This document shows positions 7,429-50,525 of a stretch of 64,000 nucleotides of DNA, in pieces. This stretch comes from Aurantiochytrium sp. KH105 (taxonomy: Eukaryota > Sar > Bigyra > Thraustochytrida > Thraustochytriidae). The notes beneath the pieces are model-generated. The model was not told the DNA's origin and did no database searches. It worked only from the letters and a program-made list of their open reading frames with translations. Position 1 is the stretch's first letter; every line of letters starts with the position of its first letter. A program made the translations under genes and the position numbers. Location: contig BGKB01000082.1 of the NCBI GenBank assembly GCA_003116975.1, forward strand, positions 132,275 through 196,274, written 5' to 3'.

Positions 7429-7430
7429 CC

Positions 7431-7447
7431 GCGGGCCTTCGGCCCGC
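7431..7447. other. GC-rich perfect hairpin
   Basis: GCGGGCC-TTC-GGCCCGC: a 7-base-pair stem and three-base loop immediately after the tandem duplication. It would be stable in RNA. Function unknown. Confidence 0.6.
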
Positions 7448-9178: not shown

Positions 9179-10588
9179 ATGAGCGTCTCTCACTCGGAAG
9201 AACTCATCGATCCGGAGTACGATGGCGGTGTTCGTCAAGTGAAGAACCCATCGCAAAAGTTCATCAAGCTCTGGGAAAACTGCCAGGATGTTGTACACAT
9301 TGACCTTGTGTATGTTCGTTACATCGCGGCGGTGGACAATATCCAGCAGACATTTGACGTGGCTATCGGTCTGGAAATGTCATGGCTCGCCTCGGAGGAA
9401 GACTGCCAAAGGTACTATGCCAACGCACCAAAGGCGAAGGCCGAGTACGTCCCTGACTTTGTGCCCAACTTTGAGTTTCCCAATGCCAAAGCGGAGAAAC
9501 GCGAAATCCGAGGCCATGCTGACGGAAACAAGTTCAAGATTATCGAAGAAGAAGAAGACGGAAAGCATTACAACTGCATGCGCCCGCTCGTTTACCTTAC
9601 GTGTATGGAGCGCTACGAGCTTCAGAGCTTTCCATTTGATGTTCAGGAGCTCACCGTGACAATGGACACGCCCTTTTACGACATGTCCGTGAAAAGAACA
9701 ATGTATGTCCCTCCGCGCAAAGCCTTTCACGTGGACAGAGATTCATCAAAGTACGCACCCGTCGTCCAAGAGGGCACGCGCAGGGACGGCGAGGTACTCA
9801 TCATGTGCCGCGCATTTAGTGCCATTCCGCAATTTCGTGCACGTCGGGTGATGATGGAGTTCGCTGCACGCTCGAATCCAGGTGAAGAGGATGATGAGAA
9901 GGCATACCAGTACGGGCAGCTCGTCATCCGCTTCCAGCTCGTGCGCCGGTTTGAAGGCTACATCTGGCGCATTGCCCTCCTTAGCGTGCTTCTCGCTGTC
10001 ACGGCACTCACCTGCTTTGCACTCGACATTGATCACTGGGCAGAGCGCCAAAGCTTGCTCATGACCCTCATTCTTGCGAGCGTCGCCTTTCAATATGTTG
10101 TGCAGAGTGAGCTTCCAGCCGTTCCTTATGTGGTCTTGCTCGAGAAGCTTACGATTTCGACATTTGTTTCCAACATCCTCCTACTTTGCCTGACAAGCTT
10201 GCTGAGCTCAGAGGTTCTCATCACGGACGCTGCGACGCGCAGGGACATGGACACTTACCTTGCAGTTGGTTACATAGCCGTCCTTTTCACTTTTGTCGGA
10301 GGTTTCTTCCTCTATGGAATATATCGCAGACACCAGGAGTTGCGCAAGCTTGATATGGGCACAATTGGACTTCGTAAGAAGAACTATGTGGAGAAGGAGG
10401 ACTCATACATCACCATCACGGGGATGGACCTGCTAGACGAGTCCCGTAAACTCGATGTGAAGGGGCAGAACGGCTTTCTCAGCTTTGCGGCCTGCGATAA
10501 GGATCAAAAGAAGCACGACAAAAAGGAGAGCGTTGAAGACATGTCTGACCAAGAAGAAGAAGAAGAAGAAGAAGACTACGAAGCGTGA
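9179..10588 (+). CDS. Pentameric ligand-gated ion channel (Cys-loop superfamily, lacking the loop cysteines)
   Basis: 469 residues. Residues 35-255 follow the beta-rich extracellular ligand-binding domain of pentameric ligand-gated channels, including the diagnostic FPFD of the central loop at 151-154. The two cysteines that flank this loop in animal receptors are absent (a Cys lies two places too early; the distal position is Leu), as in prokaryotic and some protist members. Four membrane helices follow: about 262-282 (M1), 288-310 (M2), 330-350 (M3) and 362-385 (M4), with the M2-M3 link LPAVPYVVLLEKL typical of the family. The M3-M4 loop is only about 10 residues, bacterial style. After M4 comes an 80-residue charged tail ending in poly-Glu, unusual since the family's C-terminus is normally short. 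No signal peptide is visible from this ATG, so an upstream exon may be missing. The ligand is unknown. Confidence 0.87.
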   Translation: MSVSHSEELIDPEYDGGVRQVKNPSQKFIKLWENCQDVVHIDLVYVRYIAAVDNIQQTFDVAIGLEMSWLASEEDCQRYYANAPKAKAEYVPDFVPNFEFPNAKAEKREIRGHADGNKFKIIEEEEDGKHYNCMRPLVYLTCMERYELQSFPFDVQELTVTMDTPFYDMSVKRTMYVPPRKAFHVDRDSSKYAPVVQEGTRRDGEVLIMCRAFSAIPQFRARRVMMEFAARSNPGEEDDEKAYQYGQLVIRFQLVRRFEGYIWRIALLSVLLAVTALTCFALDIDHWAERQSLLMTLILASVAFQYVVQSELPAVPYVVLLEKLTISTFVSNILLLCLTSLLSSEVLITDAATRRDMDTYLAVGYIAVLFTFVGGFFLYGIYRRHQELRKLDMGTIGLRKKNYVEKEDSYITITGMDLLDESRKLDVKGQNGFLSFAACDKDQKKHDKKESVEDMSDQEEEEEEEDYEA

Positions 10589-10760: not shown

Positions 10761-13178
10761 CTATAAACGCCGTCTCAATTCCGCGGCGGCAGCAAAGCGC
10801 GCGCGCCGAGCCTCAATGGTCGACTCGTCTCCCCTGGACGACTCGTCTTCCCTAGACGACTCGTCTGGGCGAGCATCGTCCACAAGGGAATCGGCCGCAC
10901 AATCCTTTGACGCTGACGAACCATCGTCGCTAACATCTGCATCCTCTGCAGTGTTTTCGGCGGTTACAGGCTCGGCGACTTGCACAGTGCTATTATTTTG
11001 AGCGTCTGGCTCGGCTTCAGCTTCGACTTCGTTGTGTTCGTAATCCACAGTTTCGGAGACAACGGAAAATGCATCCTCGGCACAGACCTCCAAAAGTTCT
11101 TTAATATCCGCACGAGGAATCACATCATGAAGACAAAAGTAGACGCGACAGGTTGGACATTGTCCCTGCCACGAAGGATCTACTTCGTCGTCACGCATGA
11201 CAAGCTCCATGCGCGTCCGATTCCTCGCAAACCACCATTTGATGAGACACGTTTCACACCATGCAGGCTCACACGGGCAGTCGGCGCGTTCCTCGCAAGT
11301 ATCGCACGATTTGCGAATGAGGACATTTGGCGCGTTGCCGCAAGCACCCAAACACTCTTGCGCGAGATTAAACTCATCGCGACGAAAGCTGCGTCCTTGA
11401 AGAGCGCTCTCGCAGAGCATCTCGTTGAAACGGGTATGAAAGTTTGCCTCTCTACGACTCACAACAATCTCTTCCCGTTTGCGCACGCTCTCCACAAAGG
11501 TAGAACGCAAGGTCTCGAACTGACCTCGCGGAAGTGAGACATCGAAAGCATACATTGCTCGTGAGCGTTCAGCACCCACGCCCAAAATCGAGCTCCTGCT
11601 CTCAATGCGCATCGTGACAATCTCCACGAGCTCGCCCTTGATCCAGCGCCCCGACACCTGCAAGTCGGCCACTCGGGCGTCTTCAATGGCCACAACGTCG
11701 AGTCCAAAGTAGGATGTACAAATGAGCCAGTTCGGTGTCACGACTACGATGCGCGCGTTCCATGCGAGCACTAGCGTTGAAGGGTCGAGAATCTCACGGT
11801 CCATCTCGGCAATGATGCCGGCATGCAACGCTTCTGGGCCATGCGCGGCGGCCAGGCGCAGAGCGACAGGATCGAATCCACGAAAAAGGAGTGCCCCCCT
11901 GTACAGCAAGTACGCTGCAGTGGCGCTCAAAGCAGCCGCGCACAAGTAGACGGATGCAGGCGAAAAGGTTTGGTCCACGTAGAATGCGGGTTTCCTGTCC
12001 TTTTGATCCGAACTCCACAGCCACATCGTTGAGCGTTGACGAGCTCCCTTCCCAGCGCTAGCCAACGCAGCCGACGAGAGCTCCTTTGTAGTCTTTTCCA
12101 CGCGACGTACGATGCCACACGGTGACTTGAGCTCGCTGCTGAATCCCGGGAAGGCGCTGTCCTGGGTCCCCGGCACCTTGACCAGCACCTGTGTTGGACC
12201 TCGAGGATCATCGGCGAGATCGACGCTTTGCGCGATAAAATGCGCACGGTGCTCGCGGCCTTTGATCGGACCCGTGCTCCAAGTCGGAGACGCCACCATG
12301 GCGGGAAGCAAAACATATGTCTTGGCGCTTGGTCGATCGCGCATGCTTACATCCAATGGTGCCGGACCCCTCACCACATCCCACAGAAAGGGTCCCATGA
12401 TTGATAACACCAATAACGCATAGAGAAGGCCAAAAATATAGACGCCGGAAAGTCGTTTGCGCACGAGGTCTCGATGCGCACGAACGAGCCCTAGAGCACG
12501 CGCATTCTCGGCCGCTGTTCTAGGCGGCTCGACGCGAACCTTGTGCAACTCGATGACGCCCTGGAGACATCTAATCCAGCCATTGATGGAAAGTTGCGCA
12601 AAGATTCCGCCGATAGGAGCCCCTCCGAGGTCAAGGGCAAAGTACTGTCCACCAGAGCCTCCATAGGCTGGCGACATGCGACCTCGATTTGTGACGAACT
12701 GGATCTGGTCTAGGTACGCTCCTTGCTGGCCCCGAACTTCGACGATGTATTCGTCATCTTCGAGCTCAAAAGGAGGGAATTCCGTGCCGCCAGTTCCGCC
12801 AAAGGTGACGCCCTCTGGCACATCCGAATATACAAAAGTGACACCATCAACGAGAGCTCCAGCACGCACAATCACGCTTGTCACCCTGCGCTGACTAGCG
12901 CGTTGCGCGTCATCTTCGACCTCCTCTTCGCCGCGCGTGGCACCCTCGATCTGCCCATCGCGCTCGCTATTCTGCCGCGCGCCCGCAAAAGGCACATGCG
13001 AAGGCGGCACCGAGCGCGAGGACCAGCGGTGTTGCAGCGCAGCGATGTAGCCTGAGAGGTAGAACATGACCAGACTCACGCCCACAAAGAGCATTGTGGC
13101 CTGCTGCACGAGGTCGAGACGGTCGTCCAGCGTCAACACCTCGTCGAGATCTTGACGCCCCATCATCCCCTCGGGCAT
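10761..13178 (-). CDS. Jacalin-type lectin fused to a TMEM129-like ER E3 ubiquitin ligase
   Basis: 805 residues, intronless. Membrane helices are predicted at about 26-48, 243-268 and 408-432. Between the first two, residues 99-214 read as a jacalin-related beta-prism lectin: VIVRAGALVDGVTF, GGTGG, LEDDEYIVEVRGQQGAYLDQIQF and YGGSGGQYF are the family's conserved strands. The C-terminal half follows TMEM129, an ER-resident ubiquitin ligase of ER-associated degradation, with its atypical RING: Cys609, Cys613, Cys625, Cys628, Cys634, Cys636, WCETC (641/644), then CPTC (674/677) and FCLHD (682-685). The last 100 residues are acidic and disordered, with repeated DESSR units. A lectin facing the ER lumen could bind glycans on misfolded proteins while the RING ubiquitinates them in the cytosol; this is inference. 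TMEM129 itself lacks a lectin. The start is the first Met; Met5 and Met6 are alternatives. Confidence 0.85.
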   Translation of the reverse strand: MPEGMMGRQDLDEVLTLDDRLDLVQQATMLFVGVSLVMFYLSGYIAALQHRWSSRSVPPSHVPFAGARQNSERDGQIEGATRGEEEVEDDAQRASQRRVTSVIVRAGALVDGVTFVYSDVPEGVTFGGTGGTEFPPFELEDDEYIVEVRGQQGAYLDQIQFVTNRGRMSPAYGGSGGQYFALDLGGAPIGGIFAQLSINGWIRCLQGVIELHKVRVEPPRTAAENARALGLVRAHRDLVRKRLSGVYIFGLLYALLVLSIMGPFLWDVVRGPAPLDVSMRDRPSAKTYVLLPAMVASPTWSTGPIKGREHRAHFIAQSVDLADDPRGPTQVLVKVPGTQDSAFPGFSSELKSPCGIVRRVEKTTKELSSAALASAGKGARQRSTMWLWSSDQKDRKPAFYVDQTFSPASVYLCAAALSATAAYLLYRGALLFRGFDPVALRLAAAHGPEALHAGIIAEMDREILDPSTLVLAWNARIVVVTPNWLICTSYFGLDVVAIEDARVADLQVSGRWIKGELVEIVTMRIESRSSILGVGAERSRAMYAFDVSLPRGQFETLRSTFVESVRKREEIVVSRREANFHTRFNEMLCESALQGRSFRRDEFNLAQECLGACGNAPNVLIRKSCDTCEERADCPCEPAWCETCLIKWWFARNRTRMELVMRDDEVDPSWQGQCPTCRVYFCLHDVIPRADIKELLEVCAEDAFSVVSETVDYEHNEVEAEAEPDAQNNSTVQVAEPVTAENTAEDADVSDDGSSASKDCAADSLVDDARPDESSREDESSRGDESTIEARRARFAAAAELRRRL

Positions 13179-28855: not shown

Positions 28856-30781
28856 ATGTTTCAACAACCTAGCTCGATCTATGCCCCAGGGTTTCCCGGG
28901 AGACCCATGAAGGGCAAGCCAGGGGACACATTGATGAATGCTTGCTTCGATCGCGATGTTGATGCCTTCCGAGATGCCCTCAACCAAGAACTCTCCGATC
29001 GCGAGGCAGAACAAGAGACCTTGGCCCATCTCACCGAAAATCACGTCGACGAACACGGAAATACCTTTGTGCACGTCGCTGTGTACCGAGGAGCAACAAA
29101 AATCATCCGACATATTCTACAGTCTTGCCCTGCAGCCCGAGCATGGATACAAAGCAAAAATCATCATGGAATCACACCTTTACACTACTCGTGCCGACGA
29201 AACCGAACCCAGATCACAAAGACCCTTCTGCAGCATGGGGCCAACGCGCGAGCGAGAGATCTGAATGGCAATACGCCACTTCACTTTGCCGTGGAGGCAG
29301 GAAGCCTGGAGGTGGTCGAGTTTTTCCTCGAGCACAAATTGCCCTTTGACATGAGCAATGCCGGAGGCGTGACGCCTCTTCTCATTGCGTGTCGCGACAA
29401 TCTTCGCAAAATCGCATTCATTCTGGCAAGTGCAGGCGCCGACATCTGCAAGGCGAACACGACGGGCAACTCGCCACTGCAGGTTGCAGCCAAACAGGGC
29501 TGGGGTGAAGACCTTCGACGCGCAGGTGCCGTTCCCGAACAGCCAGAACCTCCAGAAATGCTCCGCATGGATGACGAAAGCGCAATGTTCTCGTGGACGG
29601 CGCCGGCCGGACGCAGCGCACCCGTGCAGCATTTTCGTCTCCAAGCCAAAAAAATCGATCGTCTTAATCCCGATGCACCTTGGGAAACGGTCGCCGACTG
29701 CATCAAGGAGCGGCGGCACACCTTTTACACGTGCACAGCTCACTGCAGCACGTATTCACGCGACCCTCGACCCGAGGACCTCGCACCAAGCGAAGTCTAT
29801 GCGGTGAGAGTGCTAGCATATAGTATTGTGGGATGGAGTGAACCGAGCGAGCAAAGTCGCATGTTTGTCACCTCTCCGGCAGCGCCAAGCAGACCCGAGC
29901 CTCCGTCCATTCTCCGCACAACGCGCACAAGCCTGACGGTTCGCTGGGAGCTTCCCGAGGCCAACGGGGCGCCCATCGACCGCTCCGAGCTTCAGTGGAG
30001 ACTTGCGCATACCCCATACGTGACCTGGAGTAGCGTACCTGACAAACTTGAAGTGGAAAGGCCCGCCTGCTCCGACGAGGAGCCTTCTTCTTCCGAATCA
30101 GACACGGACGAAGAAGAGGATCCTCTGAAGCGAATCCAGGTCCAGGAATACACGCTCAAAGGGCTCAGCCGCGAAGCCGGATATGTTTTCCGCGTGCGCT
30201 GTCATAATCTCATGGGCTGGAGCTACTACAGCGTACCGAGCATCAAGGCTTGCACAAGCTCGCGCGACCCACGAGGAAGGCGGCACGGTCTTGGCGCCCA
30301 TCAGACCGACTCTGTTCGCAGAAGCTTTCGAGGAACGGCGTCGCATGCTCAAGCTCGCTTCATGGCCATTTCGCTGGCTCGTGAGGACGATGACCACAAA
30401 TCCAAGCTTACCGCCGAAATTATTGCCCATCAGGATCTCGAACGTCGCCAAAAGGCTGCTGTGCTCAAGTTGCAAACATTTTGGCGCGGTAGGCGTGCTG
30501 CATGGAAGTATCACAATTATCTCAGGGACCGTGTCGTTCGCAAGAGCTTCCTTGTAGAGTACAATCTGGAACAGTCCTTTATTGAAGAGTGGCGACTTCA
30601 CCTCATGCGTTTCGTCATCGAAGCGCACGATTTGGAGGCTCGGAAACAAATGGAACTCGATGCGCGCCGACAGAGAAAGATGGCGCGTGCAATACGACGA
30701 GAGAAACGGCAGCTCACGCGCAAAATTCGCGCAGACCGACGCAAGCAGCAATCCGAGGAAAAGTCCAAAAACCTAGCCTAG
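28856..30781 (+). CDS. Ankyrin-repeat, fibronectin type III and IQ-motif scaffold protein
   Basis: 641 residues, intronless. Residues about 65-230 hold four to five ankyrin repeats (DEHGNTFVHVAVYRGATKII, HGITPLHYSCRRNRTQITKT, NGNTPLHFAVEAGSLEVVEF, GGVTPLLIACRDNLRKIAFI, GNSPLQVAAKQGW). Two fibronectin type III domains follow, about 232-345 (from PEQPEPPEML to the GWSEPSEQSRMF end) and 348-485 (from PSRPEPPSIL to GWSYYSVPSIKA), the second interrupted by an acidic Ser/Glu insert. Near 535-555 is an IQ-like calmodulin-binding helix (AVLKLQTFWRGRRAAWKYHN). The last 100 residues are a basic coiled coil (ARRQRKMARAIRREKRQ). It should be an intracellular scaffold; with IQ and coiled coil, a cytoskeletal or flagellar role is possible but unproven. 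It ends 23 bases before the converging MAP10-like gene. Confidence 0.85.
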   Translation: MFQQPSSIYAPGFPGRPMKGKPGDTLMNACFDRDVDAFRDALNQELSDREAEQETLAHLTENHVDEHGNTFVHVAVYRGATKIIRHILQSCPAARAWIQSKNHHGITPLHYSCRRNRTQITKTLLQHGANARARDLNGNTPLHFAVEAGSLEVVEFFLEHKLPFDMSNAGGVTPLLIACRDNLRKIAFILASAGADICKANTTGNSPLQVAAKQGWGEDLRRAGAVPEQPEPPEMLRMDDESAMFSWTAPAGRSAPVQHFRLQAKKIDRLNPDAPWETVADCIKERRHTFYTCTAHCSTYSRDPRPEDLAPSEVYAVRVLAYSIVGWSEPSEQSRMFVTSPAAPSRPEPPSILRTTRTSLTVRWELPEANGAPIDRSELQWRLAHTPYVTWSSVPDKLEVERPACSDEEPSSSESDTDEEEDPLKRIQVQEYTLKGLSREAGYVFRVRCHNLMGWSYYSVPSIKACTSSRDPRGRRHGLGAHQTDSVRRSFRGTASHAQARFMAISLAREDDDHKSKLTAEIIAHQDLERRQKAAVLKLQTFWRGRRAAWKYHNYLRDRVVRKSFLVEYNLEQSFIEEWRLHLMRFVIEAHDLEARKQMELDARRQRKMARAIRREKRQLTRKIRADRRKQQSEEKSKNLA

Positions 30782-36379: not shown

Positions 36380-38380
36380 TTACTTTTTTGCAGGTGCCGT
36401 GATGGGCGGGCAATTTAGACTCACTAGGCAGCACGCGACCTTGAAAGCGGCAGTTATCATATCCACCTGCTGGATCGGGACCTTTTGGGTGAGCCAATGG
36501 TAGTCTTTGACACGATTTATTGCTCTCTCTACGTGAATCCGAAAGTTTGCAATTTTCCGTGTGTCGTTTCCCTCCTCTCGTGTAAGCGTGTGCTGCCCCT
36601 TGAGTCGGTTTGGTGGCATGTACAGATGTGCACCCTTTCGCTTGGCCAGCTCATCGAAGATTATGAAACCTTTGTCAGCCATGATGCTTTGACCCGGGTG
36701 TGCGCAGACTTCGTAGAAACCCGATCGCTCTGTCAGTTTGGGGTCTGATATACGTCCTGGATAGGCAGCAGACTGCCATGCAATAGTACCACAAGCACTC
36801 AGACCAATCAGCAACTTGGCTGTATTGCGCGCCTTGGATTCGCTCCAAGTTGCACTCTGAGCCATTGGGTTGTCTGGTACTTGAATTTCGAGCTCAGTGG
36901 CATCAAGAATCCAGCTGACCGTATGGTGACCAAATCGCTCAGAGACGTCTTTGGGGCACGTAACATCCAGCATACACGGCAACGGAGTTGGAAACATGCG
37001 CGAGAAAGTATGATGCAGAAGATGGATGCCGAATTCAAAGGTTCGCGATATCGTGGATTGGTGGACATCAAACAACGAACCCATCACGAACTGACTCAAA
37101 TTAAGGCGCAGGATCATCAGCGTAATGAGAAGTTTGTCCTCAAGCAAAAGAGGAGCCTTCCGGTGAGAGGGCGATCTGCTTGACGGAGTTGAAAGACTGT
37201 CCTCGGCTTCGGACCTGTTGAGCTTTTTCTCCAGTCCTTGTTCAGACTTCGCGAACCCCTCGTCCTCACGAAAGCTCTGCCACTTGGCTGCAGCTGCACT
37301 GCGCTCTTTCGCGTGACAGCCACCGAAATCATAGACTGCAGACACTATTTCGTCGAAAGCAGGTACGCTGCTGACGCCAGTGTAGAATCGAAGTATTCTA
37401 GCGAAGCGCGGGATCGACTTGAAAGATGCCCACCTTAGAGGAACTTGAGAAGAAGACGTTCTTGTGACCGCTTCTCGCAAAATGGCGTAATAATCTTTCG
37501 CCTCTTTGGCCTTCGCCCGCGCTTCTGTCTTGGCCTGTTTGGAAGCGCTGAGGGCAGCGTCTCGTTCTTCACGGAACCTAATCGAATCGCTGAGGGCAGC
37601 GTCTCGTTCTTCACGGAGCTTCTGAAGTTCAGCTTCCAGCTTTTCTTTGTCCCTTTGAAGTCCACTAATCATGAATTCCGTAAGAGTTGCCAACTTCTTA
37701 GTGACAGTGTCATGGCATGCATTCGAGGTTTCAACAAAGAGAGCTTTCGAACGTTTCTTAGCAGAGCTGGCCTCATGTGACAGTCGATTGATTTCATTCT
37801 TTGCCACATCACTCCTCTGGTTTGCAACTTCAAGCTTCGCGTCAAGCTTTCGCGCCTTCTGGGTGCGCTCATAAGCAGCGTCACTCTCTGCATGGCGGGC
37901 ACGCGATGTTCGACGGCGTTTTGTCTGACTGCGCTCAGGCGAAGCGATGTGGCTTGTGAGTCTGCGCTCCGCTATCGACTTTGGTGTGAGCTTATCGCTC
38001 GCCAGTACCCATTTGCTAGTCTTCCATTCAGCCCTCTCACCAGCCGGTGGAGGAGACATTGCCGTTTCTGCAGCTATCACTTGGGTCATATCGGACTTCA
38101 AGACCCAATCGTTCGTCTTGCGCGTGTCGAATTCAAAGGAATTGGGATGAAAATGATGCCAGCGGAAGCGGCTTCTTGCTCTTGTCCCTGTAGCAACATT
38201 CTGCCGCAATCTGTTGAAGATTACATCTCGCGCCTTGCTCTCGCGAAGTGCTGCTGCATCTGTTCTCGTGTGACGGTTGCTTCTGTAAATCTCGGAAGTG
38301 CGGAAAGGACCTTGTTTATTCTGGCACCATTTCAGTGTGCATGAACATTTCGCATTGCTAGGCGATTTCCCAGCCGACAT
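36380..38380 (-). CDS. DDE_Tnp_4-type transposase
   Basis: 666 residues from ATG 38380 (the frame extends 11 codons further without an ATG). The N-terminus has a Cys/His cluster (CSCTLKWC, later RWHHFHP) that may be a degenerate THAP-like DNA-binding zinc fold. Residues 190-320 are a long coiled coil with duplicated REERDAALS units. A helix-turn-helix (LLITLMILRLNLSQFVMGSL, then DVHQSTISRTF) precedes the catalytic domain. The DDE triad is Asp493 (WILDATELEI), Asp569 (IMADKGF) and Glu618 (HVERAINRVK), with the family's usual GLSACGTIAW and YPGRISD between. This is the PIF/Harbinger and ISL2EU-like superfamily. The frame is intact, so the transposase may be active. Confidence 0.92.
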   Translation of the reverse strand: MSAGKSPSNAKCSCTLKWCQNKQGPFRTSEIYRSNRHTRTDAAALRESKARDVIFNRLRQNVATGTRARSRFRWHHFHPNSFEFDTRKTNDWVLKSDMTQVIAAETAMSPPPAGERAEWKTSKWVLASDKLTPKSIAERRLTSHIASPERSQTKRRRTSRARHAESDAAYERTQKARKLDAKLEVANQRSDVAKNEINRLSHEASSAKKRSKALFVETSNACHDTVTKKLATLTEFMISGLQRDKEKLEAELQKLREERDAALSDSIRFREERDAALSASKQAKTEARAKAKEAKDYYAILREAVTRTSSSQVPLRWASFKSIPRFARILRFYTGVSSVPAFDEIVSAVYDFGGCHAKERSAAAAKWQSFREDEGFAKSEQGLEKKLNRSEAEDSLSTPSSRSPSHRKAPLLLEDKLLITLMILRLNLSQFVMGSLFDVHQSTISRTFEFGIHLLHHTFSRMFPTPLPCMLDVTCPKDVSERFGHHTVSWILDATELEIQVPDNPMAQSATWSESKARNTAKLLIGLSACGTIAWQSAAYPGRISDPKLTERSGFYEVCAHPGQSIMADKGFIIFDELAKRKGAHLYMPPNRLKGQHTLTREEGNDTRKIANFRIHVERAINRVKDYHWLTQKVPIQQVDMITAAFKVACCLVSLNCPPITAPAKK

Positions 38381-38428
38381 TTGCTCTGCAAGCGCGCCCG
38401 ACGTTTGGCCCACGACGCGCGCACAACC

Positions 38429-39932: not shown

Positions 39933-42900
39933 CTAGAGCTGCTCCGGGGGCTGCTGGTCGGCCAGGGGAATGCAGCGAAAGAGATGTGTCTTCATATCCT
40001 CGAGCGTGCGCACCTTGCGCCAGTAGTCGGTTCCGCTCGGCACCCAGAATTGCATGAGCTCTTCCAACGAGTAGACCGTTCCGTCGAGCTCGACAGGATC
40101 CGCAAGTTCGTCTCCAGCGAGATCAGTACGCCCCAGAGACACACGACGATTCTTCGTGGGAAGGTCTTTCCAAACCACGTCTCGAGCAAATTCGAGACGC
40201 AGCTGGCGTTCCCATTCGCCCCACTGCGCGAGCCACGCCTCAAAGTCCTCCTCCGAAATGGCGCGGATCGTGCGACACACATTGAAGATCTCCGACGTAG
40301 GAATGTCAATGTACGATCCGTAGCGCATCACGCGCGAGGATACAGGGAGGTTCAAAGGGACCCGAAGATCGATCTCGTACCTCAAAAATACGCAGACGTC
40401 ATCGGTACTACTGTAGCCACCGCGCTTCGCGATCGAGCGAGCCGCGGCCTCATGGACGTATCCAAGACGCATGAGGCGCCGACCGAGCTCGCGGAGCTTC
40501 GTGCGGTCTCCACGTGCACGCGCAATTTCGCAGACAACGTGCATTTGGTTCAGCGCCCAGATTGGCTTGTCTTCGCACGTGTCGATGCTGGAAGTCATGC
40601 AAATAACGAGCTCTTCGCGCGTTCCAGGGTCGTTCACGAGCAGCTGAATGATCTCCATCACTCGCTCAGCAAGGCCGCGTCGCATGTTCCGCTGCCGAAA
40701 CTCGCTAGCTGTACGAAGCTTACTGAGGAAGCGTACAACACTGCGCACGTACGCAGCTTCGACACAGGGCTTGATGTCGAGAATGGGAGGAGGCTTGCTC
40801 GATTTGCCAACATTTGGTTGACTTCCGCGGCTGCTGCTGCTCTGCCTCGCCGCGCTCTCACCTGTATCAGCGCCGGCAGGCTGCTCTGATTCCGGATCCT
40901 CGGCAGATTCTTGAGCGGCCTCCTGAGCGGCCTCCCGATCGGCAATGATCTTGATGGCTTCTTCGCTCAGCGGTCTGCCGTCCTTTGTGACCCACCCAGC
41001 AACAGTACTCCAGAAGCGCACAGCATCGTCCAAATCGCCGATGGAGTCGTCCGAGTCATAATCATCATCAGAATCATCCTCGTCACTATCCTCGCCGTAG
41101 TCGTTGCGAGATTCTCGATCGTCACGTGTCACGATGTACTCCATCGCCTCCTCCCGCAGACCGTGATCTTCGGTGCTGTTAAAGTAAAAGTCGACGCCCT
41201 CGCGACCGCTTTGGCGCCAGAGCGCGACCGTTTCTGAATCATCCGTCACCCCTGTGTTGGCCACGTGAACGGCATGGGTAAATCGAACCGGTTTCTCTGG
41301 CATCTTGATCTGTTCAATCTCTGCAATCGCGTCGCTTTCTGCAATTTCAGCGCTCGCGACTTTTTGCAAAATCTCTGCTATCATGGCCTCCTGTTCCGGT
41401 GTGAGGTCTACTTGCGAACTTGCAAACGACGCAGCGCTTACATTCGATGTTGCAGACGCTGCAGACGGACGCCTAGACGGCGCGAGGGAAGAAGAAGAGG
41501 ACGATCCTCCCCGAAGGCGCCTTCCAACGCTGCCAAGCGCGCTTCGCGCGAGGCGCGACGAAAGGCTCGAGCCCGAGCCTCGACGGCGAGTCGCGCCGGC
41601 CGTCTGCGAAACCTGCGAGGCAGACCTCGATGGTCGCGAAGTCAATGACCTACGTGCAGACCGGGAAAGTCGGCCACTATGCACAGATGGTGTCGTCTCG
41701 AAATCGGCCTCCCCATCGCCTTCATCGTCGGCGTCGCTACCAAGGTCGACATCGTCGTCGTCGGTGGTGGCAGCAGCAGCAGGATCTTTTGTTTCTTCGA
41801 TGATGGGCTCGAGATCCTTGCGCGCTTCTTCTTGAGCAGCTACACGAGCCTTGCGCTTGATTTCTTGGATCTCAAGTCTGCCTTGCGCAGCGGCGGTGGC
41901 AGCTTCGTCACGCTTCGCTTGCGCTTGCTGCCGAGCCTCATTGGCCTCCTCCCAGAGTGCGCGTGCTTCTTTAGCTTTGTCGACTGCATCGGCCATGAAA
42001 TTGAGCAAGGACTGCGGAAGGCTTTCAATCATGACTGAACCATTGATCATCAGGTCATGGCCTACCTGGACATCGTCAGGAAGAGACCTGATCTCGCCAC
42101 AGCCAACGACGCTAAGCGTTCCGGGAACTTTGAGACCGCGTGGGATCTCCTTCAGCTTGACGCAGTCGACCAAATGCAGGGAGACACCAGTTCTTTCTTC
42201 GCTGCTTGCCTCGGAAGAGGTCGGGAGATCGTCGAAAGTGCGGAGAGGTTCCTCTTCGGGCTCCTCCATGTCGCTCTCCGAGCTGCTAGATGAGGAAGAG
42301 CTGCTGCTGTCGCTGCTGTCGCTGCTGTCGTTACTGTCGCTCCTGCTCCTATTTCCGTGGTGGCGGCGATGACTGCGGCCAGCGCCTCCTTCGGCGGGTT
42401 CTGCAAGGCTGTACTCGGTGACGATGCGCGATTCGACGCTGGAACGGCTTCGCGTGAACATCGGACGCATGACCTTGGACGCCATCGTGCCCATGCGGCT
42501 CATCTTGCGCACGGGTGTGGCATTTGCGTTGGAGAGCACAGGAGGCGCCGAAAGACTCCAGTTGGTCGGCAGCGTTTCCAGCTCAGGGCACTCGAAAATA
42601 GTGAGCGACCCGCGCACATGGAAATCAGGCGAGATCTTACGCATCTTTAGGCACTGATACACGATCGCCGACCCGTACACTTCAAAAGGGGGCAAAGTCT
42701 CGAAGTCGTCCGCCATTGCAAGAATTAGCGAACCGTAGACGGTCAGCTTGCGCGGCATTTCCGAAAGACTGCTGCAGCCGAGAAGATTGAAAAATCCCTC
42801 TCCGTCTGCGTTCGAAATCTTCGTGAGTGCAGGGTAGCCCACAGTGATGCGCGTCTTTGCAAGTGACTTCAACGCCATACAATAATGCATGTCAATGGCT

Positions 42901-45900
42901 TCGTAGCAGACGAGCTCCTGCGGCATCTCACGCAGCGACGTGCAATGCTGCATATGGAGACAGCCTTTCGGAATGCGACCGCTCTCTCGGTGATGGACGA
43001 GTCCGGGATCCGGAATGCCAATTTCGAGGCGTTGTGCCCCCAGCTTTTCTAGAGACGTACAGTGCGACAAATGCAGATCTCCGTAGACGCGCTCAAGGTA
43101 GACCTCGCGCAAGCGCGGGCACCGACGAAAGTTTGCCTTGCCTCCAGATACCTCGGCGTTCGCCTCGGACTTGACCTGACCTACGATCGTGCCAGGACGA
43201 ACCTTGACAAGTTCTGGCATTCCCGTGGCAACGAGATTGCCGAGAACACGGATCGGTGGAAGCTCGACAATGTTTGACCCAGAAAGCGTGAGATCGCCGA
43301 GAACCTCGGTCATGCCAAAGAACTCAAGCGCCGTGCAGCCGGTGAGATCAACATCACCTCGCGCCTTAGAGTCCACAACAATGAAACCGTTCTTCCATCG
43401 CCCGCGCACGCGTCCTACACGCAAGCCGCGTGGAACAATACGGAGCGCCTTGCAGTTGCGCGCTTCAAGGTTTGCGAGATGGGCATTGGACGGTATACTT
43501 GTCAACGAATGGCAGTTGGAAATATCGAGCTTCAGTTGACCTTTCGAGTTTGCGAGCGCCTGATCGGGCAAGAACAGGAGATTGCGACAGCCAGAGAGGC
43601 GTAATTCCTCAAGATTCGGCGGAAGGACGTCCGGGATCGTTTTAAGCTCGAGCGAATCACTCAGATTCAGCGAGCAGAGATTTGTCAGCTTGACTAGCAG
43701 CGGGCTCAGCACACTTGAGTCCTGGAACAGCACGTTGCACTGCGTAATTTCCAAAGCGCGAAGCGAGTCCAGATCCTCGTCGGGAACGTCGAGTGTGGTG
43801 AGGTTAGAAAGCTCCTGGAGACGCATTGACGACTTTGCGCCCACCACGGAGCAAACCTCGAGCATAGGTAGATTGCTGAGGTTGACGGTACCGTTCACGC
43901 GAAAGGGAGGGCCAATTTGCTGCATCCTCTGACAGTCTCGTACCACGAGCTTGCCTAAAGTGCGAGATCCTTCAAACGTGACGGCCTCGAGTATGTTGCA
44001 CAACATGAGAGTCACTTCGACCTTGGGTCCCACGCTGGCGCTCTCGGTCGCCAGCTCTTTTAGGCTGGCAAGACTTTCGAGTTCTAGCCTGCCCTTCTCG
44101 ACGAACAAATGCGTCGCTAGCGACTCGAGTTGTGTGCAATGGTCGACTACCAAGGCACCATCGATGGTCAGCCCACCTGCAGCAACTTTGGTGAGGAATT
44201 GGCATCCGGAGATTTGCAGTCGACCGTGCATGGCCACCTCCGGTGAGGAAGTCCAAAGCTCGTTGACGTTCCTGCACCCGTTGATGTACACTGACACGGA
44301 CGATGACTCGTCTGAAGTATCATTGTCATTGTCTGCAGAGTTGAGCGCAAGGGCCTTGGGATCAAGTTGAATGCCGTCGAGCGAAGAAAAGCCCCTACAG
44401 CTTGAGACGCTCAAGCGGGAGCTCACCGTGACGCCAGCCATGGATGCCAGAGAGTGGCAAGAGGTCAAGTTGAGGTTGCGAACAGTAAGACCGTCCAAAT
44501 CATGCAGTGCGGGACCCGCGCGAACCTTTTCTTGCTCCTTTTGGAGTTTCAATCGCCGTTTCGTTCTCTGCTCGAGACGGCCCAGGTACTTTATCCACTT
44601 CGCCCGTTTCCTGCGCCGATTCTCTCTGTACGCCTGTTTTTCTCGTGCCTCGCGTCGTTCGCTTCTCTCCTGACGCCGTTTCGCTCGATTTTCGCGACGT
44701 TCCGCTCGACCTTCCGTCTCAGACCCAGAGGAATCCTCTGAGACGTAGTCGCGTGCGTCAAATGCGGTTGCTGCCGTGCGGATTCGATCAAAGGCCCAGT
44801 AGGACCAGATTTGGATTTCGCGCGCTTGATCACTAGTCATTGCCCGGCAGGTCTCGAGCGTACGAAGAGTGTCGCTTTCGATGAGCCTATCCAGGAGATT
44901 TTCGTAGCTCTCGTCCTCTTCAATCAATGGGGCCATGAAGCAGCGCAACACTTCAATTTCCCGACGGCCCTCGGGACTATCGCGCGGAGGCACTCTTAGG
45001 TCCACCTCGCCTTCGGGGAGCTCGAGCTTATCGAAGGCGCTCACAACGGCTTGTCTGTGTCTTTCAAGAATCAAGTCATAGCCATTAGCCAGGCCCTCGA
45101 CCGTCAGCGCCCGAGCGGCCCGAATTGTGCGAACTCCCTGATCATAGAACATGTCAAAATAAGAAGCCAGGCCTTCAAAGCGAAGGGCGCGCAGAATTGC
45201 CTTTTCTTGGTCATTCAGCGGTCTGCGTCGCCACGCCCCGGGATAACGATCCGGATTGCCGAACTCGGCATCCGAAAGGTTCTCATCGATGTTGTCATCA
45301 CCAAAGCCTGCAGAAGCCGCCTCGGCCGATAAGAGGCGACGCGTTAGTCTCACAGTGGTCATTCGATCCATGCCCCAGAGGGGGCTTCCGGACTCTGCCA
45401 TGATCGCAAGCAGCTTAGCCTTGCAATCATCAATGGAAGAAGTCCCCTCGTCCTTCATTGTCTCCCAGTATCGCGCCATGCCGAGGCGAGCAAGTATGCG
45501 TAAGAGAGGTGGATCGCGCTCGGTGCGGGCAACTGCATTGCGGATAGCAAGCATAATTTCGGTCCGCTCGCGAAAGCTTGTCACTCCGAGCTCCCAGAGA
45601 TCAGCGTGCGAGAGCTGGCTAGCAGCTCGCAAAGCGTTCGGTTTGCGCCCTTGTACTTTGCCGAGGAGCGCAGGGGCGCACTCGCCCCAACCTGCTGTTT
45701 CTAAAATGTGCTTGACATGAGAAGCAGAGCCGTAGCGGGGCTGTGAACGACGCCGCATTGCTGATGCGGAGGACAGTTGCGATGCGCGCCGGCGGTTCGA
45801 GGCGGCTGACGTTTGCGACCGACGACGCGTTGCAGACGAAGCGGTCGAGCGCCGACGCGATGACCGTGAGCGAGATGTCTCGCGTGGCATGGGAGGGGAA

Positions 45901-48900
45901 TCATCTTCAGCATTGCTGAGCGACGTGTCCTCCTCGTCATCAACTTGAGAAATTTCTTTTTCCGCGATCTTTGCAGCCTCTTGGGCGGTGTCCTCATCGG
46001 ACCAGGACGATGCGCAGGAACTCGACCCGCCCGAGTCGTAACCGTTCATAATTACCATATCAGAACCCATCGTCAAGCGGGTGTGGGGCAGCGCCTTGAG
46101 AATCCGCAGACTGTCTTCGGTCGAGATGCCAAACTCTCGAAGCTGCGTGATGTTCGTCGACTTGAGTCTTTCAATACTCCTTACGCCACAACGCACAATA
46201 ACGTCGTGGTATTGCTCTGCATCGACTGACTTGAGAAATTCGCGAACGGCAAGGGGTCCGTCCCACATGTTGAGAACAATTTCCTTTTGCAGGGCTCCTA
46301 TGAAAGACGCCGTCGAGCCCGAGTCAGAACTGGATGCGCGAGCGCGTTGCGCCCCCATCATCGGCATTTGATGCAGGCAAGCCAGGAGACTATCATTCTG
46401 GGCGCCAAAGATCTCGGCAAGCGCGTCGGCAGAAATTGCATGAAGTTGCGCGACCGTGTGATAGCCTTGCTCAAAGAGGGCTGGTGCAACGTGAGCAAAG
46501 CCAGCGCTTGCTAATTTGGCAAAGATAAAGTCCCTTTCGTCGCCCTCAGCCCTCTCACACAATACCTGCGAACTCGCGTCGCTAGCATTGTCTTCGCTGG
46601 GCAATCTGGACGTTCGCCGTTCACTTGCCTGAGAACCTCGCCGAGAAGAAGAGGCTCGACTGCTCCTTTCGCTCTCCCTCTTTCCCTTTTTCTTTTCCTT
46701 CTTCTTCTTCTTCTTCTTCTCTTTGACGAGAGGCTCGCTGCCCTCTTCGGCAAAGTCCGCGGGGAGGTCAGCGGCGCGAAAGGCCTCAATGATCTCGGCA
46801 CGAGCCGCGTACGAGGCCACTTTACATCGCCTCAGAGAATCGTGATCGAGGTTTTTTAACTTCACCGTTGCGCAAAGCCGAGCTTGCGTCATTTCCTCGT
46901 ACAAGGGGCCCTGGTCGATGCTTGCAAGGACCTGATACACTGGCGAGGCCAACTTCGCGCGTACGCTCTCATCTTGGGCCTCTTGATTTTGACGCTCTGC
47001 TTCGTCGACGAGCTCCTGTGCATCGTCGATAGCCTCTTGAGAGCCTTGCGACTCTGCTTGCGCCTGAAGCTCGAGAGCAGCTGCCGCATGGACAGCAGCA
47101 ATAATGCGCTGCCGCTTCTCGAAACGCACGTAGCCAAGCTCGCGCAAACTCTGGTGAGACATCGACCATGCTGCCTGGGCTGCGGTGTAGATGTTTCTCG
47201 ATGCCAACCTGTCGGCAAGATTTGGCTCATCAATTTCATTAAGTGCCTGCTTAAGCGCAGAACTTGGCGTGCGCGCTGGCCCAGCTTCAACTTCACGAGC
47301 AATTCTACGCAGAGCAGCTATGATAGGTTTTCGCGTCTTCTTAAATCGCATACCAAGAGCCTTCATCTGTTTGTTGTTGACCTCGAGGCACGTGTCGACG
47401 TTATCGTATCCCCCCCTTTTCAACTTTTCATACCATTCCATCAGATTCTCACGACGCAGCGCTCTGCGCAAGCGCTTGCGGAAAATCCGTCGCGCTTTCT
47501 TATCATTGGCCGCGTTTGGATCGGTTTCGTCGCCACTACTCTCCTTGTCAACATCACTGTAGTCTTCCTCTTCGCTGCTGTCCTCTTCGCTGCTGTCCTC
47601 TTCGCCACTGCTCGAGCCGCGGCCAGAATACCTGCTTCTACGAACTCTGCTTCCAGAGCTGCATTGCGTGCGCCTCGTTTCGGAACGGCGCGTCGAAGAA
47701 TCTTCGCTATCATCATCACTAGATGTTGCACGATGCCCCTCCCCCTCCCAAAAATTGCGGTCGCGCATGACCGCGCACACTCGTAATCGCGTGGAAAACA
47801 AGAAGATGCCTGCCTCGCGCAATTGCTGATGTGTGATATCTTGACAGGCTTCAAATGAATCAAAGCCTCTACTTTCCAGGTGACGAAGAATACTCTCATC
47901 CAGGGAAAGGTGTTGAAGAGCTTGACGCAAGGTGCAAACTGGTCTGCCAGTGCTCTCTCGTGCCGGTGCTGGTACTGGTTGCCGTCGATCAGGGTGCGAC
48001 CATGCTTCACGAGAGTTCAACATCGTCAAAAGTCTGTCGCGGTCAATGAAGCGATGTACGCCCCATTCACGCAACTGCCCGTGCGTCATGGTGCGGCAAG
48101 TCGAGTATGTCAACCGATTGGCTGCGGTAAAGCTTGGCAGCAGGTCCTCGCGATTGACGGCTCGGAGGATCCCCACAAGACCAGCTTCAATAACTTCTTC
48201 CCCAGCGTCCTTATCTTCTTCCTCAGGCTCGTCAGGCTCAGCGTCGGCATTTGCAAACGCCTCGAGGACTCGCTCACGATCCAGAAAAAGCCGCACCCTC
48301 AAGCTATTGTGCAGAAAAAAGTGCGAGAGGAGACTTTTGCAGACACTCACCGAAGTAAGCCCCTGGCTTTTGAAGGCCGGCCACAGGGTGTCTTCCATTT
48401 CGATGCTTGAAAGAATTTTGCGCACGGTAGTAGCATTTGACGTGTATGACAACGCCAGAACTTTCTTACGATCCTTTTCATCTTCCTCGTCCTCGCTTTC
48501 GGTTGGGGTGTCGCTCTCGTGCACGCTGTACTCAGACACTGACGAGAGGCTGGATTGATCAAGAGCGTCATCAAAAACGTTCCAGCCTGAAGGGACGCAC
48601 TCGACCAGCTCGATACGACCGAGCTCAGCGGTTCCTGACTGCGAGAGCCCTCCTGAAAGAGGCGAGTTTCGGATTTCCACGTCGACACGGTTGGGGTTCG
48701 CGGTCTCCAGGTGTCCGGCGAGGAATTCCAGGGAGGGGCAACTGAAGATGTGCACTGCGAGGTCAACATTAGCCTGCGGTTGAAGATGAAGGTGGCCCTC
48801 CGTGATGCAAGCAAACTGTCGGCAAGATCGGACACTCAGAGGCCCGGTCAAGTGCAACGAGCCTGCGCTGCTAGAGAGCGACTTGAGGGCCGGGCAATCG

Positions 48901-50525
48901 TCCAGATTTGCTCCGGCGATGGTGACTTCGCCTTTCGACAAAGCGCGGAGAGCTTTACAATTGCTAATTGACAAAGACCGTGAGCACTCGAGCGAGGAGG
49001 TCGCCACGGTCTTGAGCTTTGCGCAGCGCTCGAGCGTGAGCCCCGAAATGCTTACATTGTCGCCTAGAGACCGGAGCTCGTCGCATCCTCGAATGTAGAC
49101 GCTGTGCGATGCACTGATCAGATCCGGCGCGAGCTCTTCGATGTCATTCAAGCTTGACAAATGCAGATCTGAGGTCACGCAGGTACTCTCGAGCCAGTCA
49201 GCTGCGCCTTTGACGCCTTCGAGATTGAGATTCTTGACTATCCACGCCACCTCGGCGGGGTTCACATTCGGCATGGAAGCGTCGCGGATCTTAACGGAGC
49301 ACTTTGTACGGATACGCTCGGGCAGACCCGGAATGTCGCTCAGCTCCCCGTTCATGTTGAGCCAAAAGTCTTTTTTGAGCCGGAGACCGCGAACTTGTGG
49401 CGGCCCCTCGCGAGCCTCGAGTTCGGCGATACGATCTTGGCGGGCCTTGAGAAGACGTGCGCGACGGCGGGCATTTCGGCGCTCCACGCGCTCGCGCTCC
49501 AAGCGAGCACGAACGCGTTCTGGAGCGCGTGTGTCCTCGAAGGCGGAAATGATAGCGTGGCGAGCAACAAAAGTAGTCACACCGGCAGCGCGGAGGGGCA
49601 CATGCGTCAAGGTGCCGCACCGCGAGAGTGTTGTCCACCCATTTTCTTCGAAAAGCGGAAACATATCTTCCATACCAATACCGCGCAAGAGTTGGCGAAT
49701 CATAAACGGCTCGTTTGACTCAGGATCGGTACTCAGCTCGCCAGACTCGTCGTCACTGATGTCTTCGGGATCAAAGTTCTGACCGGGATCACTGTGAACG
49801 GCACTGGAGGCATCGAGATTTTCAAATGCGGCGATGATGCGTTCGCGCATGGAGAACAGCGGAACGCCTGCAGCGCGCAGATCAGAGTGAGACACATTGC
49901 GAAGTCGATCGAGCGTCACAAGATTCTCGCGCTCAAAGGATGGGATAAAGTCTTCATGTCCAATGTTACGAAGGACGTTCGCGATGGTCACCATCTCATC
50001 GTTTCTGTCGAGGTCGTCGACGTCCGAGTCGTAGTCAGACCCGTAGTCGAGGGCTGGCTCTGCAGCGTAGAGAGCTTTCTTGACTTGATCTATGCCATCG
50101 ACGTTTGCGCTTTCAACTCTGTCGGCCCAGTCTTCGATGTAAGCTCGTGTCGCTGCATCGCAGCGAGAGCGGTCTTTCTTCTTGGACCTTTTCCGCCTCG
50201 GCCGTCTGCCCCTTGATCGTGGCGCGCTGCCCGAGGATCCTGACGTGTCGCTGTCGGAGAACAAGGGCGAGGACTCTTGCGAGGAGCTGCTGTCACTGGT
50301 TGCGCTGTCCCGCTCGCGCCTGAGCAGGCGATTCGCGGCTTCTTCGTCGTCTTCGTCGTCCGAGCGGTCCGAGTCGCGGCGCACCACGACGTCTTCGCCG
50401 TCTTCGGGGCCCAGGCCTGCCTCCGCGAGGCTTGCCGCCAGGGCTGCTGCGAAGGCGTCTTCGTCGCTCTGGCCATCCTGCTGCTCGCGCAGCGCCCGCA
50501 AGAGGTAGCTCTCGTTCTCGCTCAT
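39933..50525 (-). CDS. Giant intronless protein: SAM-like repeats, leucine-rich blocks and a NEL-type E3 ubiquitin ligase domain
   Basis: 3530 residues. Acidic, Ser-rich N-terminus with a basic patch (RRPRRKRSKKKDR). About 14 degenerate SAM-like helical units of roughly 55 residues begin near 175, 275, 697, 782, 865, 1015, 1088, 1195, 1332, 1428, 1603, 1675, 1775 and 1855; the pattern is LRxIG-x-ED-x10-F, then LTHxxLRAxGV and RxRIIxAF. Leucine-rich blocks lie at about 395-655, 2005-2660 and 2775-2842, with units such as SLHLVDCVKLKEIPRGLKVP, the short style of bacterial effectors. A coiled coil follows (2842-2910), then Ser-rich linkers. Residues about 3245-3450 match the NEL ligase domain: VVRFLSKLRTASEFR, then DTCEDKP with Cys3317 and Asp3319 as the catalytic CxD, TDDVCVFLRYEIDLRVPLNL, and FEAWLAQWGEWERQL. 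The last 80 residues contain ADPVELDGTVYSLEELM, weakly U-box-like. It probably ubiquitinates targets captured by the repeats. Targets and regulation are unknown. Confidence 0.9.
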   Translation of the reverse strand: MSENESYLLRALREQQDGQSDEDAFAAALAASLAEAGLGPEDGEDVVVRRDSDRSDDEDDEEAANRLLRRERDSATSDSSSSQESSPLFSDSDTSGSSGSAPRSRGRRPRRKRSKKKDRSRCDAATRAYIEDWADRVESANVDGIDQVKKALYAAEPALDYGSDYDSDVDDLDRNDEMVTIANVLRNIGHEDFIPSFERENLVTLDRLRNVSHSDLRAAGVPLFSMRERIIAAFENLDASSAVHSDPGQNFDPEDISDDESGELSTDPESNEPFMIRQLLRGIGMEDMFPLFEENGWTTLSRCGTLTHVPLRAAGVTTFVARHAIISAFEDTRAPERVRARLERERVERRNARRRARLLKARQDRIAELEAREGPPQVRGLRLKKDFWLNMNGELSDIPGLPERIRTKCSVKIRDASMPNVNPAEVAWIVKNLNLEGVKGAADWLESTCVTSDLHLSSLNDIEELAPDLISASHSVYIRGCDELRSLGDNVSISGLTLERCAKLKTVATSSLECSRSLSISNCKALRALSKGEVTIAGANLDDCPALKSLSSSAGSLHLTGPLSVRSCRQFACITEGHLHLQPQANVDLAVHIFSCPSLEFLAGHLETANPNRVDVEIRNSPLSGGLSQSGTAELGRIELVECVPSGWNVFDDALDQSSLSSVSEYSVHESDTPTESEDEEDEKDRKKVLALSYTSNATTVRKILSSIEMEDTLWPAFKSQGLTSVSVCKSLLSHFFLHNSLRVRLFLDRERVLEAFANADAEPDEPEEEDKDAGEEVIEAGLVGILRAVNREDLLPSFTAANRLTYSTCRTMTHGQLREWGVHRFIDRDRLLTMLNSREAWSHPDRRQPVPAPARESTGRPVCTLRQALQHLSLDESILRHLESRGFDSFEACQDITHQQLREAGIFLFSTRLRVCAVMRDRNFWEGEGHRATSSDDDSEDSSTRRSETRRTQCSSGSRVRRSRYSGRGSSSGEEDSSEEDSSEEEDYSDVDKESSGDETDPNAANDKKARRIFRKRLRRALRRENLMEWYEKLKRGGYDNVDTCLEVNNKQMKALGMRFKKTRKPIIAALRRIAREVEAGPARTPSSALKQALNEIDEPNLADRLASRNIYTAAQAAWSMSHQSLRELGYVRFEKRQRIIAAVHAAAALELQAQAESQGSQEAIDDAQELVDEAERQNQEAQDESVRAKLASPVYQVLASIDQGPLYEEMTQARLCATVKLKNLDHDSLRRCKVASYAARAEIIEAFRAADLPADFAEEGSEPLVKEKKKKKKKEKKKGKRESERSSRASSSRRGSQASERRTSRLPSEDNASDASSQVLCERAEGDERDFIFAKLASAGFAHVAPALFEQGYHTVAQLHAISADALAEIFGAQNDSLLACLHQMPMMGAQRARASSSDSGSTASFIGALQKEIVLNMWDGPLAVREFLKSVDAEQYHDVIVRCGVRSIERLKSTNITQLREFGISTEDSLRILKALPHTRLTMGSDMVIMNGYDSGGSSSCASSWSDEDTAQEAAKIAEKEISQVDDEEDTSLSNAEDDSPPMPRETSRSRSSRRRSTASSATRRRSQTSAASNRRRASQLSSASAMRRRSQPRYGSASHVKHILETAGWGECAPALLGKVQGRKPNALRAASQLSHADLWELGVTSFRERTEIMLAIRNAVARTERDPPLLRILARLGMARYWETMKDEGTSSIDDCKAKLLAIMAESGSPLWGMDRMTTVRLTRRLLSAEAASAGFGDDNIDENLSDAEFGNPDRYPGAWRRRPLNDQEKAILRALRFEGLASYFDMFYDQGVRTIRAARALTVEGLANGYDLILERHRQAVVSAFDKLELPEGEVDLRVPPRDSPEGRREIEVLRCFMAPLIEEDESYENLLDRLIESDTLRTLETCRAMTSDQAREIQIWSYWAFDRIRTAATAFDARDYVSEDSSGSETEGRAERRENRAKRRQERSERREAREKQAYRENRRRKRAKWIKYLGRLEQRTKRRLKLQKEQEKVRAGPALHDLDGLTVRNLNLTSCHSLASMAGVTVSSRLSVSSCRGFSSLDGIQLDPKALALNSADNDNDTSDESSSVSVYINGCRNVNELWTSSPEVAMHGRLQISGCQFLTKVAAGGLTIDGALVVDHCTQLESLATHLFVEKGRLELESLASLKELATESASVGPKVEVTLMLCNILEAVTFEGSRTLGKLVVRDCQRMQQIGPPFRVNGTVNLSNLPMLEVCSVVGAKSSMRLQELSNLTTLDVPDEDLDSLRALEITQCNVLFQDSSVLSPLLVKLTNLCSLNLSDSLELKTIPDVLPPNLEELRLSGCRNLLFLPDQALANSKGQLKLDISNCHSLTSIPSNAHLANLEARNCKALRIVPRGLRVGRVRGRWKNGFIVVDSKARGDVDLTGCTALEFFGMTEVLGDLTLSGSNIVELPPIRVLGNLVATGMPELVKVRPGTIVGQVKSEANAEVSGGKANFRRCPRLREVYLERVYGDLHLSHCTSLEKLGAQRLEIGIPDPGLVHHRESGRIPKGCLHMQHCTSLREMPQELVCYEAIDMHYCMALKSLAKTRITVGYPALTKISNADGEGFFNLLGCSSLSEMPRKLTVYGSLILAMADDFETLPPFEVYGSAIVYQCLKMRKISPDFHVRGSLTIFECPELETLPTNWSLSAPPVLSNANATPVRKMSRMGTMASKVMRPMFTRSRSSVESRIVTEYSLAEPAEGGAGRSHRRHHGNRSRSDSNDSSDSSDSSSSSSSSSSESDMEEPEEEPLRTFDDLPTSSEASSEERTGVSLHLVDCVKLKEIPRGLKVPGTLSVVGCGEIRSLPDDVQVGHDLMINGSVMIESLPQSLLNFMADAVDKAKEARALWEEANEARQQAQAKRDEAATAAAQGRLEIQEIKRKARVAAQEEARKDLEPIIEETKDPAAAATTDDDDVDLGSDADDEGDGEADFETTPSVHSGRLSRSARRSLTSRPSRSASQVSQTAGATRRRGSGSSLSSRLARSALGSVGRRLRGGSSSSSSLAPSRRPSAASATSNVSAASFASSQVDLTPEQEAMIAEILQKVASAEIAESDAIAEIEQIKMPEKPVRFTHAVHVANTGVTDDSETVALWRQSGREGVDFYFNSTEDHGLREEAMEYIVTRDDRESRNDYGEDSDEDDSDDDYDSDDSIGDLDDAVRFWSTVAGWVTKDGRPLSEEAIKIIADREAAQEAAQESAEDPESEQPAGADTGESAARQSSSSRGSQPNVGKSSKPPPILDIKPCVEAAYVRSVVRFLSKLRTASEFRQRNMRRGLAERVMEIIQLLVNDPGTREELVICMTSSIDTCEDKPIWALNQMHVVCEIARARGDRTKLRELGRRLMRLGYVHEAAARSIAKRGGYSSTDDVCVFLRYEIDLRVPLNLPVSSRVMRYGSYIDIPTSEIFNVCRTIRAISEEDFEAWLAQWGEWERQLRLEFARDVVWKDLPTKNRRVSLGRTDLAGDELADPVELDGTVYSLEELMQFWVPSGTDYWRKVRTLEDMKTHLFRCIPLADQQPPEQL
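40175..40795 (-). other. NEL-type E3 ligase domain within the giant gene
   Basis: Encodes residues about 3245-3450. Order of conserved elements as in IpaH and SspH: FLSKLRTASEFR, EELVICMTSSIDTCEDKP (catalytic Cys codon at 40575-40577), ALNQMHVVCEIARARGD, then LRELGRRLMRLGYVHEAA, DDVCVFLRYEIDLRVPLNLP, and a C-terminal helix pair ending near WLAQWGEWERQL. In bacteria this fold forms a thioester with ubiquitin through that Cys. Confidence 0.82.

Follow-up and report, generated by a model that had tools for sequence, protein, structure and literature searches.

A giant thraustochytrid protein with a NEL domain, part of a conserved gene family of probable ubiquitin ligases

NEL ubiquitin ligases have been described as enzymes that bacteria inject into host cells to hijack the ubiquitin system of the host. 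Why, then, does a giant gene of the thraustochytrid Aurantiochytrium sp. KH105 encode a NEL domain, and is the domain at work there? We analysed this gene within a window of 64,000 nucleotides (contig BGKB01000082.1, positions 132,275 to 196,274), the whole stretch of DNA considered here. A first-pass annotation, made from the letters alone, had proposed an open frame at 39933-50525 ending in a NEL domain preceded by leucine-rich blocks. The frame is real and lies on the minus strand, which that annotation did not mention. The giant also carries a SAM array, a UIM-like motif and a U-box-like tail, and the genome holds 15 other NEL loci, all of which go beyond the earlier description. In our view the giant is very probably the thraustochytrid's own E3 ubiquitin ligase, with catalysis of the NEL type, working along the lines proposed below and going back to one old gain.

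The domain is recognised by sequence profiles and by its predicted fold. Pfam NEL (PF14496) matches residues 3262-3447 with an E-value of 4e-27 and 95.5 bits (cut-off 24). By sequence, the domain alone retrieves the Protein Data Bank (PDB) chains of SlrP (4puf, E 6.7e-12), SspH1 (1.1e-8) and SspH2 (2.2e-8), followed by IpaH entries; among the 14 PDB rows with E <= 1, 12 belong to NEL ligases, and the remaining two are weak. A profile of 24 protist-type NEL rows (A1), all 24 of which match PF14496, returns 12 PDB sequences at E <= 10, every one a NEL ligase (best E 7.8e-26). The predicted structure matches NEL crystal structures and places the cysteine in the conserved CxD motif, Cys3317-Glu3318-Asp3319, exactly where it had first been read.

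Sixteen positions of the domain are conserved in all three bacterial rows and in 90% or more of the 35 protist-type rows; among them are the CxD cysteine, the second aspartate, two tryptophans and some of the leucine core. The typical motif is CxDKPxWALNQ in protists and CEDR in the three bacterial rows. The second active-site aspartate of IpaH9.8 is named as Asp397 in the accessible text of a NEL review (PMC9320238). Its putative counterpart here is Asp3375, a correspondence set by position.

The giant is one member of an expanded family. A genome-wide profile search (76.0 Mb, 367 contigs) gave at least 32 NEL matches; all 32 are above the cut-off and free of internal stops, with C-x-D in the same column throughout. 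They fall into 16 pairs of 93-98% DNA identity, which we read as the two haplotypes of 16 loci, the allele of the giant lying on G000:C94. For ten pairs the comparison spanned 6 to 18 kb, flanks included, and for six it spanned ~1.8 kb. The same genome has at least 44 HECT matches and 11 U-box matches, so that the numbers of NEL and HECT genes are similar in magnitude.

Comparison of the alleles reveals purifying selection. Pooled over the 16 pairs, the ratio of replacement to silent change (dN/dS) is 0.064 in NEL (154.5 silent and 33.5 replacement differences) and 0.137 in up to 250 codons upstream, NEL showing the strongest constraint among the three parts compared. The earlier proposal of an acquisition used in the cell's own ubiquitin system is backed by this constraint, the use in ubiquitination itself being a prediction. 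The same data bear on the idea that a catalytically dead NEL fold has been retained as a protein-binding scaffold. The giant size and the many interaction modules would suit such a role, and the activity side of the giant is itself a prediction; yet CxD is intact in every own copy, the second aspartate is kept in 34/35 protist-type rows, and constraint is strongest in NEL itself. We regard a dead scaffold as improbable.

The eukaryotic location of the gene can be judged from its surroundings and from public data. The GC content of the giant gene (0.54-0.58 per 2 kb) is within the range of the remaining window, and Pfam matches were obtained for eight of the nine neighbour frames scanned, a number of them to eukaryotic-type families (XPG nuclease, MAP10_N, Tmpp129), as the first-pass annotation had maintained. 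Protein searches gave two matches with the giant as query (range ~1900-6200 aa), 23 with a shorter relative and seven with a third query, three of them new (P0027-P0029); the word filter of these searches misses bacterial NELs of ~27% identity, which makes the match lists hardly informative about bacteria. All six Hondaea fermentalgiana proteins among the matches agree with a single own allele at 98.6-99.8% across the aligned regions, being closer to it than the own alleles are to each other, and they come from a separate assembly. Furthermore, three of the 23 matches are MMETSP transcript models labelled complete, from relatives.

These observations meet the suspicion that contamination or a chimeric contig brought a bacterial NEL into the protist assembly. 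NEL ligases are, after all, described from bacteria (PMC9320238, as far as its accessible text goes). The suspicion is opposed by the 16 allelic pairs, by NEL domains fused with SAM, SPRY and ARM-like modules, and by an identity of only 27% to the single plasmid record found. The two haplotypes, the separate Hondaea assembly, the transcript models and the eukaryotic neighbours exclude a bacterial chimera in practice, and we give contamination next to no weight.

Several public records carry NEL under other names (tubulin, LSm1, importin alpha, TAO1). The Hondaea proteins P0004 and P0010, named tubulin and LSm1, appear to be gene models in which a NEL gene has been joined to a neighbour, because the corresponding frames of our genome show only NEL in Pfam and P0010 stops inside the tail. 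P0015 (1462 aa), named a PRP6 homolog, combines TPR-type repeats, LRR-like repeats, NEL and tail, either as a gene-model fusion or as a real architecture. P0008 bears the name of the bacterial SspH1, but the protist tail follows its NEL and the tree puts it with the protist-type rows, so that its name looks like annotation by similarity.

Upstream of NEL, Pfam alone passes three SAM_2 stretches in the giant (92 bits). The relative P0002 has its N-terminus, SAM array, NEL and tail in common with the giant. An iterated profile trained on these two proteins detects 14 SAM repeats in either one, every repeat at E <= 2.8e-8 as computed within this two-protein set. The leucine-rich blocks are likewise confirmed: 16 of 17 matches to an LRR-like pattern precede NEL (three in block 1, 13 in block 2) and one lies inside it, whereas 500 shuffles of the giant gave 1.03 matches on average and never more than 6. 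The LRR_EndoS profile is barely above its cut-off (28.9 vs 27.9 bits).

The N-terminus holds a candidate ubiquitin-binding helix. In the first 60 residues, UIM is the top Pfam match (14.4 bits, cut-off 21; E 0.034), followed by the unrelated Imm5 (E 0.054) and UIM_2 (E 0.18), all below cut-off; UIM_2 (0.053) and UIM (0.063), also below cut-off, are the sole Pfam matches at the N-terminus of P0002. The strict UIM consensus occurs once each in the giant and P0002 and in 0/27 other proteins compared, and a loose pattern averages 0.01 occurrences per shuffled giant.

Front ends differ across the family, as seen in full-frame Pfam scans of 12 of the 16 loci, the giant included. SPRY and LRR lie upstream of NEL in C90, C156 and the public protein P0003, and C201 has ARM-like repeats in this place (Arm 18.5 bits, below the cut-off of 20.6). 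The remaining members scanned have NEL alone, or with LRR_EndoS, or with one weak repeat family. Two NEL genes stand head to head (L009, G000:C31; 3281-5869 on the minus and 6408-9401 on the plus strand), and L010 (G000:C93) has the same layout; in both haplotypes the open frames are ~0.5 to 0.7 kb apart.

A multiplied family with diverse front ends could also belong to a secreted or injected weapon, aimed at the ubiquitin system of other eukaryotes instead of the protist's own, much as the targets of bacterial NELs lie in a foreign host according to the accessible part of PMC9320238. A protein of 3530 residues with a SAM array and a UIM-like motif nevertheless reads as intracellular, and we consider a weapon very improbable.

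Behind NEL, the tail is predicted to adopt a beta-hairpin/helix fold with a DPV register, a possible likeness to the U-box E3 ligases UBE4B, Prp19, LubX and the AvrPtoB C-terminus. It follows NEL in almost every family member, and tail-like matches in this genome lie only behind NEL, bar one weak match; the tail was not found in the three bacterial NEL proteins examined. In contrast to true U-boxes, none of the 23 tail rows lists a match to Pfam U-box (PF04564) at E <= 10. Comparison with the genome's own U-boxes in hhalign gives a probability of 35% over 28 columns, in register, and the tail profile finds UBE4B in the PDB at E 0.6, ranked below an unrelated row at 0.39. Most tail rows have Asp-hydrophobic-x-Asn at the usual place of the loop-2 proline, the position where U-boxes contact the E2. 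The majority sequence is TGxDLxN without proline, but nine of the 23 rows have, by eye, a proline two residues past the Asn place. In a single NEL pair (L018/L019; C97/C200) the tail is almost unrecognisable (E 0.02-0.03).

How old is the family, and where did the domain come from? The tree comprises 38 NELs (16 own, 19 other protist-type and three bacterial). Before it was built, 22 of 60 rows were dropped: every one of the 16 pairs lost one of its two alleles, and the six Hondaea proteins were removed as near-identical. P0027-P0029 also lie outside it. A branch with 100/100 support and long stems sets the bacterial NELs apart. The NEL of the giant groups with P0002 at 100/99, and genes of this genome form pairs with those of other sources (C82-P0002, C1-P0020, C190-P0018, C4-P0006), so that duplication of the family probably predates the splits between these sources; of the 35 inner branches, 14 lack resolution. 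The pairing backs the age of what had been called an ancient acquisition.

A search for a bacterial donor with A1 in the genome contig collection gave 86 patterned stretches and no relatives, and hence no close donor among bacteria, a weak negative since the patterns are protist-like. A scan of viral contigs gave one patterned stretch and no relatives, and the plasmid search one record, from Serratia symbiotica (27% identity, E 5e-6). Fourteen control genomes gave no NEL match; they also gave none for HECT or U-box and are therefore uninformative about eukaryotes. As NELs are described from several bacterial genera (PMC9320238, accessible text), a bacterial origin is the default, which would make a transfer from bacteria to the protist probable. 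The opposite view would see NEL as one more class of cysteine-type E3, at home in a eukaryotic lineage, with a tandem NEL/U-box-like ligase of thraustochytrids nearing HECT in gene number, and the bacterial effectors as stripped-down copies borrowed from protist hosts instead of the source. We think this unlikely. The likeliest reading is an ancient acquisition that would now serve the cell's own ubiquitin system.

In the working we propose for such a native ligase, the cell's own E2 would pass ubiquitin as a thioester to Cys3317, in an active site shaped by Asp3319 and Asp3375. From there, ubiquitin would move to a substrate held by LRR, SAM or other modules that precede NEL; across the family, LRR, SAM, SPRY or ARM-like parts would choose the partners. 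The SAM array may assemble or anchor the giant, the UIM-like motif may hold ubiquitin, and the U-box-like tail may assist E2 docking or stabilise the NEL domain. A single ancient gain, with bacteria as the probable source, followed by duplication would have given 16 loci with exchanged front ends. In bacterial NELs, the LRR blocks the cysteine until substrate binds, and UbcH5 is the favoured E2, as stated in the accessible text of PMC9320238.

Several points weigh against a native NEL ligase of this kind. Ligase activity, the choice of substrates and the role of the tail are all predictions from sequence. The LRR-like repeats stop near residue 2812 and ~450 other residues follow before NEL, a spacing unlike that of bacterial LRR-NEL proteins; because of this long linker, autoinhibition of the bacterial form is uncertain in the giant. 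The transcript models belong to relatives, none being seen of the giant itself. Constraint is weaker downstream of NEL (pooled dN/dS 0.235), and the tree is unrooted, with just three bacterial NELs. The NCBI NEL effector models score far under their cut-offs (best 36.6 vs 1113 bits), as expected of full-length models.

The giant thus compares with several known systems. With bacterial NEL effectors (SspH1, SspH2, SlrP, the IpaH family, NopM) it shares the NEL fold, the 16-position core described above and an LRR upstream of NEL; it differs in belonging to a multi-gene family of a eukaryotic genome, in the SAM, SPRY or ARM-like front ends of that family and in the U-box-like tail, absent from the three bacterial proteins examined. 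Effectors of the IpaH/SspH class are encoded by bacteria and delivered by type III secretion; the giant is located in a eukaryotic genome in two haplotypes and is therefore filed as a NEL-domain protein, not as an effector. HECT and NEL folds are unrelated. A cysteine-thioester mechanism is nevertheless expected for both, and HECT genes are likewise numerous here, with some giant frames (up to 7319 aa), so that large size is not rare in this genome; the HECT profile (PF00632) is absent from the five Pfam families at E <= 1 in the giant.

In print, a eukaryotic gene has been tied to NEL in green-algal NLR proteins (PMC7145615); by the description in its accessible text, one such assignment differs in resting on the LRR superfamily SSF52075, called homologous to NEL. 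A Giardia inventory lists PF14496 among its search models (PMC7029713, accessible text), and the 2022 NEL family review speaks of bacteria in its accessible text (PMC9320238). No report of NEL in thraustochytrids was among the matches listed in a literature search covering work outside subscription papers.

Table 1. Features of the giant NEL gene in the window
Feature	Residues	Position	Strand	Basis
SAM-LRR-NEL giant, whole uninterrupted frame	3530 aa	39933..50525	-	ATG to stop
UIM-like motif, candidate ubiquitin-binding helix	20-36	50418..50468	-	sub-cut-off Pfam UIM; strict pattern
SAM array, 14 repeats	180-1922	44760..49988	-	2/14 partial; interrupted by LRR-like block 1
LRR-like block 1	~390-640	48606..49358	-	3 pattern matches at 496-563; limits by eye
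LRR-like block 2	~2018-2812	42090..44474	-	13 pattern matches; LRR_EndoS best stretch 2210-2264
NEL domain	3262-3447	40185..40742	-	Pfam PF14496, PDB sequence matches, predicted fold
Catalytic Cys of CxD	3317	40575..40577	-	32/32 own NELs; 35/35 protist-type and 3/3 bacterial rows
Asp of CxD	3319	40569..40571	-	CxD column conserved in own NELs and aligned rows
Asp, putative counterpart of IpaH9.8 Asp397	3375	40401..40403	-	34/35 protist-type and 3/3 bacterial rows
U-box-like C-terminal domain	3462-3524	39954..40142	-	predicted fold, profile comparisons, register

Elsewhere in the window, a transposase frame with DDE_Tnp_4 and HTH_Tnp_4 (36383-38413, minus strand) lies ~1.5 kb past the stop of the giant. 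A frame at 10764-13178 (minus strand) combines a jacalin-like lectin domain with a Tmpp129 domain, presumably a TMEM129-type E3, and another at 28856-30778 (plus strand) joins ankyrin repeats to fibronectin type III.

A eukaryote with 16 NEL loci, intact catalytic residues and strong constraint would make NEL a native E3 type open to study in a free-living protist. It raises the questions of whether bacterial and host NELs have one origin, which way the transfer went, and whether one enzyme can combine the work of a cysteine-type fold with that of a U-box-like fold. The LRR-, SPRY-, ARM- and SAM-fused NELs may serve as a natural set for reading the rules of autoinhibition and substrate choice.
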